In this document: positions 6,420 through 24,232 of the stretch, one piece after another
Layout: each line of letters starts with the position of its first letter
How positions within the stretch are numbered: position 1 is the stretch's first letter
The notes under the pieces: generated by a model
Seen by the model: the letters and a program-made list of their open reading frames with translations, nothing else
What the model was told of the DNA's origin: nothing
The model's database searches: none
NCBI GenBank assembly: GCA_030149525.1
Contig: JASBRJ010000377.1
Location: 1-64,000, forward strand
DNA: 64,000 nt
Origin: a bacterium
Lineage (GTDB): Bacteria; Vulcanimicrobiota; Xenobia; Xenobiales; JADMJV01
Direction of reading: 5' to 3'
Program-made: the position numbers and the translations under genes

Positions 6420-7775
6420 ATGCAGATCGCCACCAGTCAGAAAACTGTTCGATATAAAGTTCCCCTTCTCCAGCGAGAAGCGATCGGAAGCAAACCGGCT
6501 CACCGATTCGACCAAAACCCCAAAGCCGAAACGCCCTATGTTTCGCTCCCCGATCCCTCCAAAGGAGGAGATCATACGGTTTGGGCCACTCAGCCTGTCT
6601 ATTCCGAGGCGGGCGAGGTTCAATTCAAAGAGGTCGCCAAGACGGTTGATCTTACACCCCGCAACCCATTGACCCGCGGGCTGGGATACGGGGCCTTAGC
6701 TGCCGTTCCCGGAGCCATAGGTGGGCTCTTGCTGAGCGAGACGCTGGGACTGACCGCAGGCGCAGGTGCCTTGCTGGGAGCCGCTGTGATAGGTGGAAGC
6801 GTGGGACTGGCCACCGGCGCTCAAGTCTACGGAGAGAAGACCGCTCTCGCCTGGGATACCCACAAGATTTATCAACACGAGATGAAGGGCTACCACGAAC
6901 TGGTAGGACTGGGGGAAAAGAACGGCGAGCGAGGCTTCTTCCACCGTTTTATGCCCGATGTGAAATCGGATGTGGTGGGAGAGTATCAGACCCCCAAAGT
7001 GATTCGATACAAGGGTGAAAAGCCGGAAGATGAAGGCGGACTGGTCTCCCGTGAATGGCCGGGGGTGATCCTGAAGAAAGAGCCGGAGGTTCCCAATCGC
7101 AAAGTCGATGTGACGGTGTCCTTTGAAGATTCAGCCTTGCGTCGCAGGCATCTTGGTCGGATGCCGAGCGACCACTGGGATTACTCCTCTTGGAGTGAAG
7201 GCTATCGCGAGTGTGGACCGGGAGGCTGCAACACCGGCGGACAGAGTGTGGTGCGGTCGACTCCTATCTACGAGCCGAACAACGAACCGCGAGTGGAGGC
7301 CATCGAGAGGCGGCTGACTGAGGAGGCTTCTTCGATTGCCGGTACGGCCATCGGCTACGGGTTGGGCGGAGGCGCGCTGGGAGCTTTTGCCGGCTTTGCA
7401 GTCGGTGCTCTGACCGGGCTTGATGTGGGCGGCCTGGTGGGAGCCGGAGCGGCCATCGGGGCCACTGCAGGAGCCGTCTGGGGGGCCAACTCCGCCTCCG
7501 ACGATAGAGTTCGTGTGGAGTGGCGCGAGCGGCCTATTCTGGAGAAAGAAATGGTCGGCTACTCAGAGAGTGTCCGGCGCCGTTACGTGACCCGTTGTCA
7601 TCGGGAATGGGATCCCATCGATGAGCGCTATGAACAGAAATGTCGCCAGGAGCCCGAGGGTTGGCACCATGATTTTCAGGCCCACATCAGTTCATGGCCT
7701 GTGGGAACCTACGTGGCGCCTGTGATTGTTCATTATTCGGCTAAAGAAGAGGGTGAGGTTCCGCCTCAAAGCTAA
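6420..7775 (+). CDS. Duplicated glycine-zipper membrane protein
   Basis: The 451-residue protein has a good ribosome-binding site (AAGAGGA, about 9 bases before the ATG). It contains two long Gly/Ala-rich glycine-zipper segments, near residues 83-140 and 300-365, each able to form a membrane hairpin. Each zipper is followed by related soluble elements: EMKGYHELV and EMVGYSESV, then VGEYQTPKVIRY and VGTYVAPVIVHY. This points to an internal duplication. There is no cleavable signal peptide. Glycine-zipper segments oligomerise in membranes in many families (OmpA-like, Rick_17kDa and others), but I cannot assign one. It stands alone, with a convergent small membrane gene 13 bases downstream. Confidence 0.85.
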   Translation: MQIATSQKTVRYKVPLLQREAIGSKPAHRFDQNPKAETPYVSLPDPSKGGDHTVWATQPVYSEAGEVQFKEVAKTVDLTPRNPLTRGLGYGALAAVPGAIGGLLLSETLGLTAGAGALLGAAVIGGSVGLATGAQVYGEKTALAWDTHKIYQHEMKGYHELVGLGEKNGERGFFHRFMPDVKSDVVGEYQTPKVIRYKGEKPEDEGGLVSREWPGVILKKEPEVPNRKVDVTVSFEDSALRRRHLGRMPSDHWDYSSWSEGYRECGPGGCNTGGQSVVRSTPIYEPNNEPRVEAIERRLTEEASSIAGTAIGYGLGGGALGAFAGFAVGALTGLDVGGLVGAGAAIGATAGAVWGANSASDDRVRVEWRERPILEKEMVGYSESVRRRYVTRCHREWDPIDERYEQKCRQEPEGWHHDFQAHISSWPVGTYVAPVIVHYSAKEEGEVPPQS

Positions 7776-19236: not shown

Positions 19237-19433
19237 AACGTAATTCCGTTCTTGAGTTGCCGGGAATAACCCATGGGCAACCACGCCGCACTATAGCATA
19301 AGCTCATGGAAGCTTAAATTAGCACAGTAATAGAATGTTTTAATTTTCTGGAGGAGTAACCTTATAACAGCTTGGGCTTGAAATCAATCCAATATTTTGA
19401 AGAACAGACTCGCTCGTGTTAGGTTTGCCATGC

Positions 19434-19919
19434 ATGATGAGACGGTTTTTCAAAGTGATCGTGATGTTGGGGCTTATCCTCCCCACCCTTGCCGACCCCC
19501 TCGGCACGCCCTATACGAACAGTCGTTTCGGTTACCAAGTCACCGTGCCGGACGGCTTGCTCATCAGCAACCGGGCCGCCGACAACTCCGGACTCACCTG
19601 GCAGACCGGGACCGTCAAACTCCAGGTCTCCGGAATCAATAACCCCTACGGCATCAAACCACACGAGTACTTCGAACGGATCAAGACGGCCGCCGCCGAT
19701 CGCATCGTGACCGAACGCGAAGGGGGACACCCTTATAGTTGGTACGAGATCTTGTACACTAAAGACGGCCGACGCATTCATCAGAGAACCTATGTAGGTG
19801 GAGGCTCCATCAACACGGTGGCTTTTTCCTACGCTTATCGGTATCGCAAGCAGAAAGAGCGTTTAGGGGTGGAAGTTCTAGAGAGCTTCCGACCCGGCGA
19901 CCTCAGTCGAGCTCACTAG
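19434..19919 (+). CDS. Secreted hypothetical protein
   Basis: I start at ATG 19434 (or 19437), because RRFFKVIVMLGLILPTLADP is a clear signal peptide; the longer frame from GTG 19416 would bury it. The mature part (about 140 residues) begins YTNSRFGYQVTVPDGL, a pattern common in small periplasmic beta proteins of the PsbP/DUF1795 style, with basic helices at the end. No catalytic motif is visible. Probably periplasmic or surface-exposed; function unknown. Confidence 0.75.
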   Translation: MMRRFFKVIVMLGLILPTLADPLGTPYTNSRFGYQVTVPDGLLISNRAADNSGLTWQTGTVKLQVSGINNPYGIKPHEYFERIKTAAADRIVTEREGGHPYSWYEILYTKDGRRIHQRTYVGGGSINTVAFSYAYRYRKQKERLGVEVLESFRPGDLSRAH

Positions 19920-19926
19920 AAGGTCA

Positions 19927-20094
19927 CCTAGCAGGCTGATGCAAAGCTCTCTCGTCGTCAGAAAAGTTCATTATTTGCCGTACCGAATCGAAAATTTATC
20001 CCCATATGTCCGTATATGCCTCAAAATTTTCGATTCAGCACGACAAAAATGCCCATTTTCTGACTCGGTCCGAGTTCTGCATCAGCCTGCTAGG
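19927..20094. repeat. 168-bp nested inverted repeat, MITE-like
   Basis: A 17-bp perfect inverted repeat (19927-19943 and 20078-20094, core CTAGCAGGCTGATGCA) bounds the element. Inside it GTCAGAAAA (19957-19965) pairs with TTTTCTGAC (20056-20064), and a 13-bp perfect repeat GAATCGAAAATTT (19985-19997) pairs with 20024-20036, with a small CATAT/ATATG hairpin at the centre. The right arm supplies the stop codon of the 20090-21538 gene. It lies between convergent genes and has no coding capacity. It could be a miniature transposable element, a structured RNA, or a two-way terminator. Confidence 0.85.
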
Positions 20095-21538
20095 GCCTCA
20101 AAACCAGATTCCCGGGACTCGCCAGCGGCATGGGATCGGTCTGGTAGATTTGCTTGAGCGTTTCCAGATCGACGGTAGAAATCGTGCCGGCCTCCTTATT
20201 GGCCACGTAACAGATCTTGCTGTCGGGGGTGACGACAAGTCCCGACGGCTCCTTGCCCACTCGAACCATCCCCATGACCTTTTTGGCCTGGGTATCGATG
20301 ACGGAGAGGGTGTCGGAACCGAGATTGGTCACCAGAAGGCGCTTGCCGTCGGGGGTGACGGCACATTGCTGGGGGGACACCCCGACAGGCAGCAAACCCA
20401 ATGGCTGAAAGGTTTCGAGGTCGATCACCGTGACATTGCCGGAGTGAGAGTTTGTCACGTACCCCCAGCGTTTGTCGGGGGTGGTGGACACGCAGGTCGG
20501 CACTGCACCCACGGGGATAGAGTGAACGGTCATACCGGTCTGAAGGTCGACCACCAGAAGTCGACCGTTCTGAGCCGGAGCACTTACCGTCACCAGCAAG
20601 GTTCCAGCCGGCCCGGCCACAACACAAGAGGGGGAAGCGCCGTTGAGATTGTCCAGAGGAAGGTAGGCCACCCCCTGGTTTCTTGCGGTATCGATCACCG
20701 AGATTCCCGACTGAGCGGAAATCACAGCGGCATAGATGTACCGACCGTCGTCGGAGGAGTTGAGAGAACTGACGATGGCCTTTCCGCCCGGCATAAGAAC
20801 TCGTCCGGCAGGCTCCCTGTCTCCCGACTCGTCCCAGATCCGCACCTCGCCCCCCTCCCCGGCAGTGTAGAGATAACGACCGGAACCGTCGAAAGCCAGC
20901 TTATAGATAGGGGAGTTTTGGATGAAGAAGGTGGACCTGGGTGGAGCCTTGGGAGGATAGATCATAATGTGATTGGGCTCCAAAGTGATCGGCATGAGGG
21001 GTCGCTTTCCAGGGTTTGTCTCATCCATCTGAGTCACCACCTCCAGAGAATCGGGATTGACCGCCAATCGCTTTCGGATATCTTCATCACTTAGACGCTG
21101 CATCTTGGGGCCCTTAGATTGGTCGAGAATCTTCGTCGAAAAAGCCACATAGAGTGTCCCCCTCCCCGTCAGGCTGTCCCCCACCTTAGACATCCCCACC
21201 GGCAATAACTCCACCGTGAACGTGGCGGGATTGAGAGAACTCGAATCGATTTTGGCCGTGCGCATGACAGGCTGATAGCCTTCTTTGCTGATTCTCACCG
21301 TAACTTCGCCGTTGGGAGCCTTGGTGAAGACAAACTGCCCGTCGGAGTTGGTTTTGGTCTTCAGTTCAGTGCCGACAAGTTCCACGCTGGCCCCCTGGAC
21401 AGCACCCGTGGAATTGCCGTCGGACGGAGCGATCACAAGGCCGGACAGTAAAATCTTGCCCCGACTCGGGTCCATCTCTTTGGCCAGGCCTGGAATCAAA
21501 AGTCCAATGAGGAAAAAAATCGCTATATATCTCTGCAT
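20090..21538 (-). CDS. Secreted YVTN beta-propeller protein with carboxypeptidase-regulatory-like domain (copy 1)
   Basis: ATG 21538 has AGGAG 6 bases upstream; GTG 21541 precedes it. After a signal peptide (cleaved near GLAKE) comes a short transthyretin-like domain, about residues 28-110 (VELVGTELKTKTNSDGQFVF). A linker leads to a seven-bladed propeller of about 40-residue repeats (for example YVTNSHSGNVTVIDLETF, LLVTNLGSDTLSVIDTQ). YVTN propellers are usually cell-surface or periplasmic and bind proteins or ligands. The stop codon TAG lies within the arm of the 19927-20094 repeat. A close paralogue sits at 22688-24232. Confidence 0.88.
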   Translation of the reverse strand: MQRYIAIFFLIGLLIPGLAKEMDPSRGKILLSGLVIAPSDGNSTGAVQGASVELVGTELKTKTNSDGQFVFTKAPNGEVTVRISKEGYQPVMRTAKIDSSSLNPATFTVELLPVGMSKVGDSLTGRGTLYVAFSTKILDQSKGPKMQRLSDEDIRKRLAVNPDSLEVVTQMDETNPGKRPLMPITLEPNHIMIYPPKAPPRSTFFIQNSPIYKLAFDGSGRYLYTAGEGGEVRIWDESGDREPAGRVLMPGGKAIVSSLNSSDDGRYIYAAVISAQSGISVIDTARNQGVAYLPLDNLNGASPSCVVAGPAGTLLVTVSAPAQNGRLLVVDLQTGMTVHSIPVGAVPTCVSTTPDKRWGYVTNSHSGNVTVIDLETFQPLGLLPVGVSPQQCAVTPDGKRLLVTNLGSDTLSVIDTQAKKVMGMVRVGKEPSGLVVTPDSKICYVANKEAGTISTVDLETLKQIYQTDPMPLASPGNLVLRP

Positions 21539-21673
21539 CACACACTCCTAGTCGGGGTCCCTACCATTGTATTTCGGCCAATTGACGGTGCTGTTACAGA
21601 AATTCCGGTCAAATGTAAACAAACTCGTCGCAAGCGACAGGCTGAGGGCGTTTTCAAGCGGAAGGGCCAGGCT

Positions 21674-22687: not shown

Positions 22688-24232
22688 CTATGGTCTGACA
22701 GCCACTCCAATGGGAGAGCAGCGCGGCATAGCGTCGGTGACGTAGATGGCGTTGAAGGTGGACATATCAATCACGGAGATAGTGCCGTCCTCCCGGTTGG
22801 ACACGTAGGCCCTGGTTCCATCGGGGGAGATCTTGACGTCGGTGGGACCCTGACCTACAGAAACCGTGTTGACGACCCTGTTGCTCAGAGCGTCGATGAC
22901 GGAAACCGAGCCGGAACCTTTGTTGGTCACCAGGAGATATTTGCCGTCGGGGGTGAGGGCGCACTTCTGGGGAGCCACCCCGACAGCCAGCAAACCGAGA
23001 GGCTGCATACTGGCGGTATCCACCACGGTAACGTTTCCGGCGGCGGAATTGACCACGTAAGCCGTTCGTCCGTCGTTGGAAATGGCGAGTCCGGTGGGCT
23101 TGGAGCCGACCTTGGCCGTCCCTTGAGTCATGCCGGAGTAGGCGTCCAGCACAGCCAGAAGACCTTGCCCCCCTTGGCCCATCTGCCCATCCAGAACCAC
23201 ATAAACGCGACTTCCCTCTTTGGAGGTCGCCACAGCGGTGGGCGACATGGTGCCGACCCCGTCGACACTCAGGTAGGCGGCAGGCTGGCGGGTTTGGGTG
23301 TCGATCATCATCACCCCGGGCGAGGCGGCCATAACGGCTGCCATAATGTACTTACCATCGCCCGACAACTTGAGGTCGGTGACGAAGCCGTTCATCTGAA
23401 CGGGAAGATTATGAATAACCCGATTACCGTTAGCAGCATCGAGCACCTGAACCTGACGGGCCGAGTTGGCCACGTAAAGGGTGTCGCCCGAGGCGTCGAA
23501 ACAGAGCCAGTACGGCGCGGCGTTAGTATTGTGAAACCCGGTGCGCGAGGGCGATTTGGGCGGATAGATCATGATAGTGCGGTCGGCGCCGGTAGTTGGA
23601 TTGTTGTTGGTCTGCTTGGGATCCGTGATAGGCTGGGCCCGATTGCCCTCCAGAGTCAGAGGGTCGGCACCGGCAGCGATGGCGGCGCGAACGGTGTGGA
23701 GATTTTTGTCCCAGTGAGTGTGGGGGTTGGACTCTTCCACTACTCTGGGGGAGAAAGCCACATAGACGGTCCCCATCCCGGTGGGCGTTTTGCCGACAAA
23801 CTGAACACCGTCAGGAAGCATTTCAACCCGAAGATTTTCGGGCATTCCACCGCCTTTTTCGATGGTAGCCTGTCGGGTTTCGGTACGATAGCCCTCTTTC
23901 GATATCACCACGGTGACCGGACCTTCAGGCCCTTTGGTAAAATAGAACATCCCGTTGCGGTCCGTCTCGGTGACAAGACCGGTCCCCACAAGCTCGACCT
24001 TTGCGCCCACCACGCCGCCGATACCGTCGGCGATTTCGCTGCCTCCGGTATCCTTAACCGGGGCGTGCACCAGACCGGCCAGAATGATCGTCCCCTTGTT
24101 GGGGTCCATCTTCTTGTCTTTTTTCTTGCGATCACGGGCGGCCGCTCCACCGGTTAGGAGCAAAACGAAAATCAGCATCAAAGACGCTGCCGTGCGCCAT
24201 CGCAAGACCGGGCTCCTCAAAATATTATCCAT
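22688..24232 (-). CDS. Secreted YVTN beta-propeller protein with carboxypeptidase-regulatory-like domain (copy 2)
   Basis: The 514-residue paralogue of the 20090-21538 protein has the same order: signal segment (MLIFVLLLTGGAAA), a Lys-rich stretch, a transthyretin-like domain (AKVELVGTGLVTETDRNG) and YVTN repeats (AYVVNSAAGNVTVVDTAS, LLVTNKGSGSVSVIDAL). Both copies share the phrase IMIYPPK before the propeller. Its start overlaps the end of the YqgF-like gene by 8 bases and its GGAGG lies inside that gene, so it is the last gene of the DUF3084-YqgF transcript. Confidence 0.88.
   Translation of the reverse strand: MDNILRSPVLRWRTAASLMLIFVLLLTGGAAARDRKKKDKKMDPNKGTIILAGLVHAPVKDTGGSEIADGIGGVVGAKVELVGTGLVTETDRNGMFYFTKGPEGPVTVVISKEGYRTETRQATIEKGGGMPENLRVEMLPDGVQFVGKTPTGMGTVYVAFSPRVVEESNPHTHWDKNLHTVRAAIAAGADPLTLEGNRAQPITDPKQTNNNPTTGADRTIMIYPPKSPSRTGFHNTNAAPYWLCFDASGDTLYVANSARQVQVLDAANGNRVIHNLPVQMNGFVTDLKLSGDGKYIMAAVMAASPGVMMIDTQTRQPAAYLSVDGVGTMSPTAVATSKEGSRVYVVLDGQMGQGGQGLLAVLDAYSGMTQGTAKVGSKPTGLAISNDGRTAYVVNSAAGNVTVVDTASMQPLGLLAVGVAPQKCALTPDGKYLLVTNKGSGSVSVIDALSNRVVNTVSVGQGPTDVKISPDGTRAYVSNREDGTISVIDMSTFNAIYVTDAMPRCSPIGVAVRP

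Follow-up and report, generated by a model that had tools for sequence, protein, structure and literature searches.

A hairpin element with CTAG ends at the stop codon of a beta-propeller gene in Vulcanimicrobiota: a probable miniature inverted-repeat transposable element

The window analysed here is a stretch of 64,000 nucleotides from a bacterium of the phylum Vulcanimicrobiota (GenBank assembly GCA_030149525.1, contig JASBRJ010000377.1, positions 1 to 64,000); the genome to which it belongs, G000, comprises 8.27 Mb in 398 contigs. Between two convergent genes the window carries a long palindrome, which we interpret as a non-autonomous DNA transposon of the kind known as a miniature inverted-repeat transposable element (MITE). 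The features of the locus are as follows, in window coordinates.

19416 to 19919, plus strand: flanking convergent gene, 167 amino acids, no Pfam match, ending 8 bp ahead of the element
19928 to 20093, plus strand: probable MITE in the form of a full-length hairpin, 166 bp with the terminal CTAGs counted in, supported by fold, repeats and matches to the covariance models R1 and R2 described below
19928 to 19931, plus strand: putative left copy of the YTAR target site (CTAG); palindromic, such that a duplication and a repeat end look alike here
19932 to 19949, plus strand: left terminal inverted repeat, CAGGCTGATGCAAAGCTC
19948 to 19960, plus strand: left subterminal motif TCTCGTCG (TCCCGTCG in sister copies)
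20060 to 20073, plus strand: right subterminal motif, around CTCGGTCCGA
20072 to 20089, minus strand: right terminal inverted repeat, CAGGCTGATGCAGAACTC
20090 to 20093, plus strand: putative right copy of the YTAR target site (CTAG), the complement of which holds the TAG stop of the propeller gene
20090 to 21541, minus strand: full-length beta-propeller gene with a carboxypeptidase-regulatory-like domain, its stop lying within the element's CTAG

Structure of the element and its copies in the genome

The preliminary description of this locus reported a nested palindrome with 17-bp termini, and this is confirmed. The outermost perfect arms lie at 19927-19943 and 20078-20094; a repeat search aligned arms of 71 nt each (19927-19997 and 20024-20094), 75% complementary and spaced by 26 nt; and the fold of positions 19900-20120 has a minimum free energy of -84.6 kcal/mol (z -9.75), as good a value being found in 0 of 200 dinucleotide shuffles. 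Removing the outer C/G pair leaves a unit with CTAG at both termini. The 15-mer CTAGCAGGCTGATGC, allowing up to 2 mismatches, occurs twice in the window, both times in the hairpin arms, against 0.10 expected, and the left and right subterminal motifs of the window copy give rise to asymmetric internal loops. The element is short and contains no transposase gene, and its perfect 17-bp ends and 71-nt arms are terminal inverted repeats of the kind by which MITEs are recognised. One open reading frame (ORF) of at least 80 amino acids starts within it, a mechanically called frame at 20006-21094 that is antisense to the propeller gene. The other strongest-folding place in the window, at about 7251-7600, resembles GC-rich coding sequence by eye.

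Counting copies in G000, as the preliminary description had proposed, revealed dispersed full, partial and diverged copies, which are named here by contig. BLAST recovered two more full copies, C318 (90% identity) and C136 (89%), the longer, insertion-bearing copy C324 and numerous partial matches, while a search for the terminal 16-mer that tolerated one mismatch gave 19 matches versus none for a reversed control pattern. A covariance model, R1, built from six aligned copies (C41, C318, C136, C324, C294 and C40), identified 16 distinct places at E values up to 1, six of them its own and the weakest being C395 (E 0.129); the window copy, which was used in building the model, scored 187.8 bits. 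All three approaches hence agree on several dispersed copies, as is typical of MITEs, and these are situated at unrelated genes and range from 28 to 227 bp. The contrary pattern, namely a lone copy that distant relatives retain at one and the same locus, was not seen.

The ends of these copies define subfamilies. C41, C318, C136 and C324 have CTAG-CAGGCTGATGCA; C40 has TTAA-GAGGCTGTTGACTTAGTC, with C114 and C252 close to it; C5, C36 and C201 have CTAG-AAGYCCAACCGGAAAGTGCC ends, also written CTAG-AAGYCCAACCGGAAAG; and C294, C216 and C395 are single end variants. The inner segments GTTCATTATTGTCC / GAACAAAATG and TCCCGTCG / CTCGGTCC recur across subfamilies with differing ends. Two short copies, C299 (42 bp) and C94 (28 bp), correspond to the full element minus the middle between CTGA and TGCA direct repeats, with 1 and 2 mismatches respectively; C198 (49 bp) fits this scheme less cleanly. 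Slippage at long palindromes yields deletion forms of this sort. An 18-nt insert like TACTCTTCGAGCACCACG is found in the 5' arm of elements from different subfamilies (loci L004, L015, L056, L061 and L066), and a loop extension, CGAAAGCGGAGCGTTCC or nearly so, in C114, C252 and C201.

The consensus hairpin of the six copies comprises 61 pairs, 20 of which have changes on both sides. Across the alignment 93.0% of cells are paired and the covariation score is 0.282, neither value being reached in 500 shuffles, and slid structures are at most 40% paired. Conservation of the hairpin body is structural: the outer arms have changed in concert between subfamilies, and the asymmetric subterminal motif and inner segments have been kept. 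Such covariation is compatible with RNA and DNA hairpins alike, and so with the selfish structured RNA that the preliminary description offered as an alternative.

Target sites, stop codons and flanking genes

At C136 a CTAA borders the element at either end in the same orientation, a direct and non-palindromic repeat; where CTAG or TTAA stands on both sides elsewhere, the flanks are palindromic. Of 47 elements with distinct flanks, drawn from all loci, 34 carry the same 4-mer at both ends, and in 33 of these it is a palindrome; the proportion is biased by the fact that most were found through a CTAG-containing pattern.

As first described, the right-hand CTAG contains the TAG that terminates the minus-strand propeller gene; the further proposal that the insertion had trimmed the gene, which would make the TAG a premature stop donated by the element, is not supported by comparison with relatives. 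At seven homologous loci in six relatives the gene stops at the aligned residue, by TAG, TGA or TAA. The propeller protein ends in ...LRP*, the adjoining paralogue (22688-24232) in ...VRP*, and most homologues in relatives likewise in ...RP*. Since the homologues stop at an equivalent residue, the TAG is best read, on this alignment, as the native stop of the gene, lying within the target site. In G001, G003, G004, G005 and G006 a propeller homologue adjoins secA, as it does in the window, and R1 detected no element in any of these genomes.

Gene ends, whose position is a stronger hint of duplication than the flanks, were surveyed at 16 G000 elements, excluding C252, C251, C389 and one-ended fragments. 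A flanking ORF stops within the terminal YTAR at 10 of the 16, amounting to 13 gene ends in total, and at C299, C198 and C94 both of two convergent genes do so. These pairs encode Dus and glycyl-tRNA synthetase beta (C299), a weak cytochrome c match and T2SSF (C198), and a protein with no match and NIF3 (C94), such that five of the six proteins have a Pfam match. A simple account of all three loci would be that convergent stops once overlapped at a single CTAG and were split apart by an insertion that duplicated it. As a baseline, the window has 64 CTAG sites, of which 44 are internal to ORFs and 5 overlap the stop of one; hence the bias towards stop codons probably reflects the survival of harmless insertions.

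Insertion sequences with similar ends and hairpins in other genomes

IS5 is described, in a passage of PMC10359306, as duplicating YTAR. An intact-looking insertion sequence (IS) of approximately 1.93 kb lies between two CTAGs on contig C355 of G000, with the terminal inverted repeat AAGCGCTGCCGGAAACCCCC and a transposase of 608 amino acids that passes the IS1182 cut-off (273.9 versus 270 bits). The similarity of its ends is to the C5/C36/C201 subfamily (14 of 20 positions, counted manually), not to the window copy, and so the search of G000 for an autonomous element with the same termini, as the preliminary description had suggested, returned only an IS1182 element whose partly similar ends belong with another subfamily. 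G001, a member of the same family, carries an IS1182-like element that scores 265.7 bits, just below the cut-off of 270, and is bordered at either end by CTAG-GAGGCTGCTGAAA. Across phyla, four elements measuring roughly 1.3 kb, with ends of the CTAGCAGGCTGCGGAAA type, encode IS5_4-like transposases, three of them above the cut-off; a fifth such end pair (L142) has no IS5_4-like transposase gene inside. With its YTAR target and GGCTG-type ends, as found in these transposase-encoding ISs, the window element uses the IS1182/IS5 type of end and target.

Other repeats of G000 were noted in passing. A second near-perfect hairpin, of 168 bp with other ends (CTAGTGGTCTGTCACATAAAG...CTTTATGTGACAGACCACTAG; -130.5 kcal/mol), lies at L069 3242-3409 on C355, where it abuts the IS1182 element, and a partial copy of it abuts the C5 element (L058); CTAG-ended elements therefore occur in or beside each other. 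On contig C243, L067 944-2600 encodes an IS1380-family transposase (250.3 bits, cut-off 180) within an element of about 1.66 kb that has long terminal inverted repeats, AACCCAGATGATGCGTAGCGGATT.

BLAST found the element in 0 of 37 relatives. Searching the same relatives with R1 identified one genome with a comparable hairpin, G034, which belongs to the same phylum but another family; the hairpin is 169 bp long, has CTAG/TTAA-CAGG(C/T)TGCGGAAAAACCC ends and is present in five full copies, with one more in G036. Here as well the centre is shared between elements with other arms: query positions 58-110 match the G036 element L104, the ends of which read CTAGTGCCCCGACTC, at 92%. Within G036 (L099, L104 and L109), a hairpin centre around TCGGTCA...GCTCCCTC is found with more than one set of outer arms.

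Further afield, an exact scan of genome contigs with a G000 interior pattern gave 0 matches, and an exact scan of named genomes with the end CTAGCAGGYTGCGGAARAACCC gave at least 120 stretches, the matches listed including records from Deltaproteobacteria, Nitrospira, Omnitrophota, Acidobacteria, Chloroflexi, Myxococcota and others. When ends were paired in the 120 loci, 57 pairs spanned less than 260 bp, mostly as strong hairpins and in many cases with a length of 127-169 bp; a few other pairs were about 1.3 kb long. In the Deltaproteobacterium OFTM159 (G038), 28 matches of at least 138 bp reach 96-100% identity, although many are cut by contig ends and some may be halves of one copy. A cross-phylum model, R2, built from eight elements without G000 sequence, matched the window copy from end to end (63.9 bits, E 3.5e-11), and R1 matched Deltaproteobacteria elements with up to 71.8 bits (67 of the 120 loci searched); these cross-matches mix fold, ends and sequence, and a long hairpin of any kind would score higher for having similar ends. 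A full-length, sequence-only profile of the Deltaproteobacteria elements matched C136 at E 3.4e-5 and the window copy at E 0.047, in two pieces, and with its ends removed it had no significant match among G000 loci. Because the sequence-only profiles are weak, homology of the interior across phyla depends on a short paired motif, length and fold, and not on plain sequence. Both halves of that motif, TCCCGTCG / CTCGGTCC, occur at matching distance from the ends in 14 of 57 cross-phylum hairpins versus 0 of 28,500 shuffles; this is not a fair probability, for the motif was picked after it had been seen and at least 8 of the 14 hairpins come from one metagenome-assembled genome (OFTM159). The window copy itself fails the left-hand test, having CTCGTCG instead of CCCGTCG.

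Full-length hairpins with different ends are of about the same size, 166-169 bp, in several genomes (L051, L126, L153, L058, L069 and window 19928-20093), and further size classes lie at 127, 139 and 151 bp. A search of plasmids gave no match. In viral contigs the CGG-type end had 2 matches, two IMG/VR contigs (L288 and L289) carrying the end CTAGCAGGYTGCGGAARAACCC, and the window-type end had 0. We recognised no description of the hairpin family in the open-licence literature, judged by titles and the beginnings of abstracts.

Interpretation and alternative explanations

We interpret the feature, with a probability of roughly 85%, as a non-autonomous MITE-type transposon that consists almost entirely of a single inverted repeat, targets YTAR and probably depends for its movement on a transposase of the IS1182/IS5 group acting in trans. 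The part of the preliminary description that proposed a MITE is supported by the dispersed copies, the YTAR flanks, the CTAG-ended ISs of IS1182/IS5 type and the absence of the element from relatives; the part that had the insertion shorten the gene is not. Under the proposed mechanism, an element with ends of about 18 bp of the IS1182/IS5 type (CAGGCTGATGCA...) would be mobilised by a DDE transposase of that group and would enter a 4-bp YTAR, here the CTAG holding the native TAG of the propeller gene. This site was probably duplicated, and because of the 4-bp duplication the gene would retain both its stop and its full length. Copies in YTAR sites at stop codons would survive, which would explain why gene ends so often border the elements, and long copies would then shorten to small palindromes, two of them through loss of the stretch between 4-bp direct repeats.

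Several observations weigh against this account. The palindromic nature of CTAG makes a duplication and a repeat end look the same at most loci; outer 4-mers are unlike in several copies (CTAG/CTAT, GTAG/CTAG, CTAG/CTAC and CGAG/CTAG), which is expected of old copies but might also be expected of insertion without duplication; no exact empty site was seen among the relatives, which are of a different genus and are without the 167-aa gene at this locus; and the ORFs of the gene-end survey were called mechanically. As to the transposase, G000 yielded no autonomous IS with the window element's own ends: it has three DDE_Tnp_1 genes in all, no IS5_4, and one IS1182 with differing ends. IS701, tried as another YTAR transposase, had no match in G000 either, and its end consensus as printed in a portion of PMC2266710 differs. 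A partner in the same genome is not required for MITE status, given that partners can be lost, and that of the window element has probably been lost from G000 or is missing in the assembly.

In resembling MITEs, the element is short, has no transposase gene, bears terminal inverted repeats, is present in dispersed copies and has flanks consistent with target duplication as in an IS family; it departs from them in being nearly all one hairpin with covarying arms, in having inner segments that recur with several different terminal arms, and in that no IS found here has its exact ends. With IS1182 and IS5 (IS5_4 group) it shares CTAG flanks and GGCTG-type terminal repeats, although it lacks a transposase gene and no IS found has terminal repeats identical to those of the window copy. 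A third comparison is with repetitive extragenic palindromes (REPs) and REPINs, which would be moved as single-stranded DNA by a REP-associated tyrosine transposase (RAYT, a Y1 tyrosine transposase) and in which a foot tetranucleotide would supply the TAG stops. Passages of PMC3733652 describe REPs as extragenic palindromes near gene ends, measuring 20-40 bp, with GTAG or CGTC left unpaired at one end, and as able to supply TAG stops, so that the supply of a stop is not new as such. Some copies here do have GTAG on one side, but the window element is about four times longer, at 166 bp, and has paired CTAG or TTAA at both ends, and thus falls outside the definition of a REP; the CTAA/CTAA of C136 and the convergent stops in both CTAGs fit duplication by a DDE transposase, and ISs of the same end type encode DDE transposases. 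We therefore consider a REP origin extremely unlikely. A host-useful RNA under selection, or a bidirectional terminator between convergent genes, would account for the conserved and covarying fold and for the convergent position of the elements at the window, C299, C198 and C94. It is nevertheless very improbable, since the element was not found at the syntenic secA-adjacent locus in relatives, the copies are scattered over unrelated genes and vary from very short to long, the window, L126, L051 and L058 have no Rfam match at gathering score, and YTAR ends are shared with ISs.

The hairpin itself may be maintained either by selection on the fold or by conversion of one arm by the other. Conversion, through fold-back repair, is compatible with a MITE and is a possible, if tentative, explanation for this one step: it would keep the arms alike and make covariation a by-product, and it agrees with the concerted differences between the arms of subfamilies with different ends and with the presence of deletion forms, long palindromes being prone to rearrangement. 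However, conversion should wipe out asymmetric subterminal mismatches, whereas TCCCGTCG / CTCGGTCC is kept in elements of G000 and of Deltaproteobacteria. The preservation of the asymmetric loops argues against conversion along the whole length, and the concerted change of the outer arms allows it there. A more speculative idea, to which we give little credence, is of a modular class of long-hairpin parasites across several phyla, in which the inner hairpin, with its asymmetric subterminal motif, is kept and both terminal arms are switched at once to fit different IS1182/IS5-type transposases. An end captured by one arm would be copied to the other by fold-back repair, the hairpin would serve as a device for switching transposase, and the loop motif would be a protein binding site or a functional RNA or single-stranded DNA fold.

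For the MITE that we favour, the unusual points are the full-length hairpin with covariation, the inner parts that recur with different ends and the gene-safe insertion at stop codons. It indicates that a gene-less transposon can settle harmlessly: a YTAR that contains a stop codon, when duplicated, spares both flanking genes, even convergent ones that overlap at one CTAG. The results also point to a widespread set of hairpin elements in which the inner part persists and the ends change in concert, and they make two questions testable, namely what keeps some MITEs palindromic throughout and how elements without a transposase of their own switch partner.
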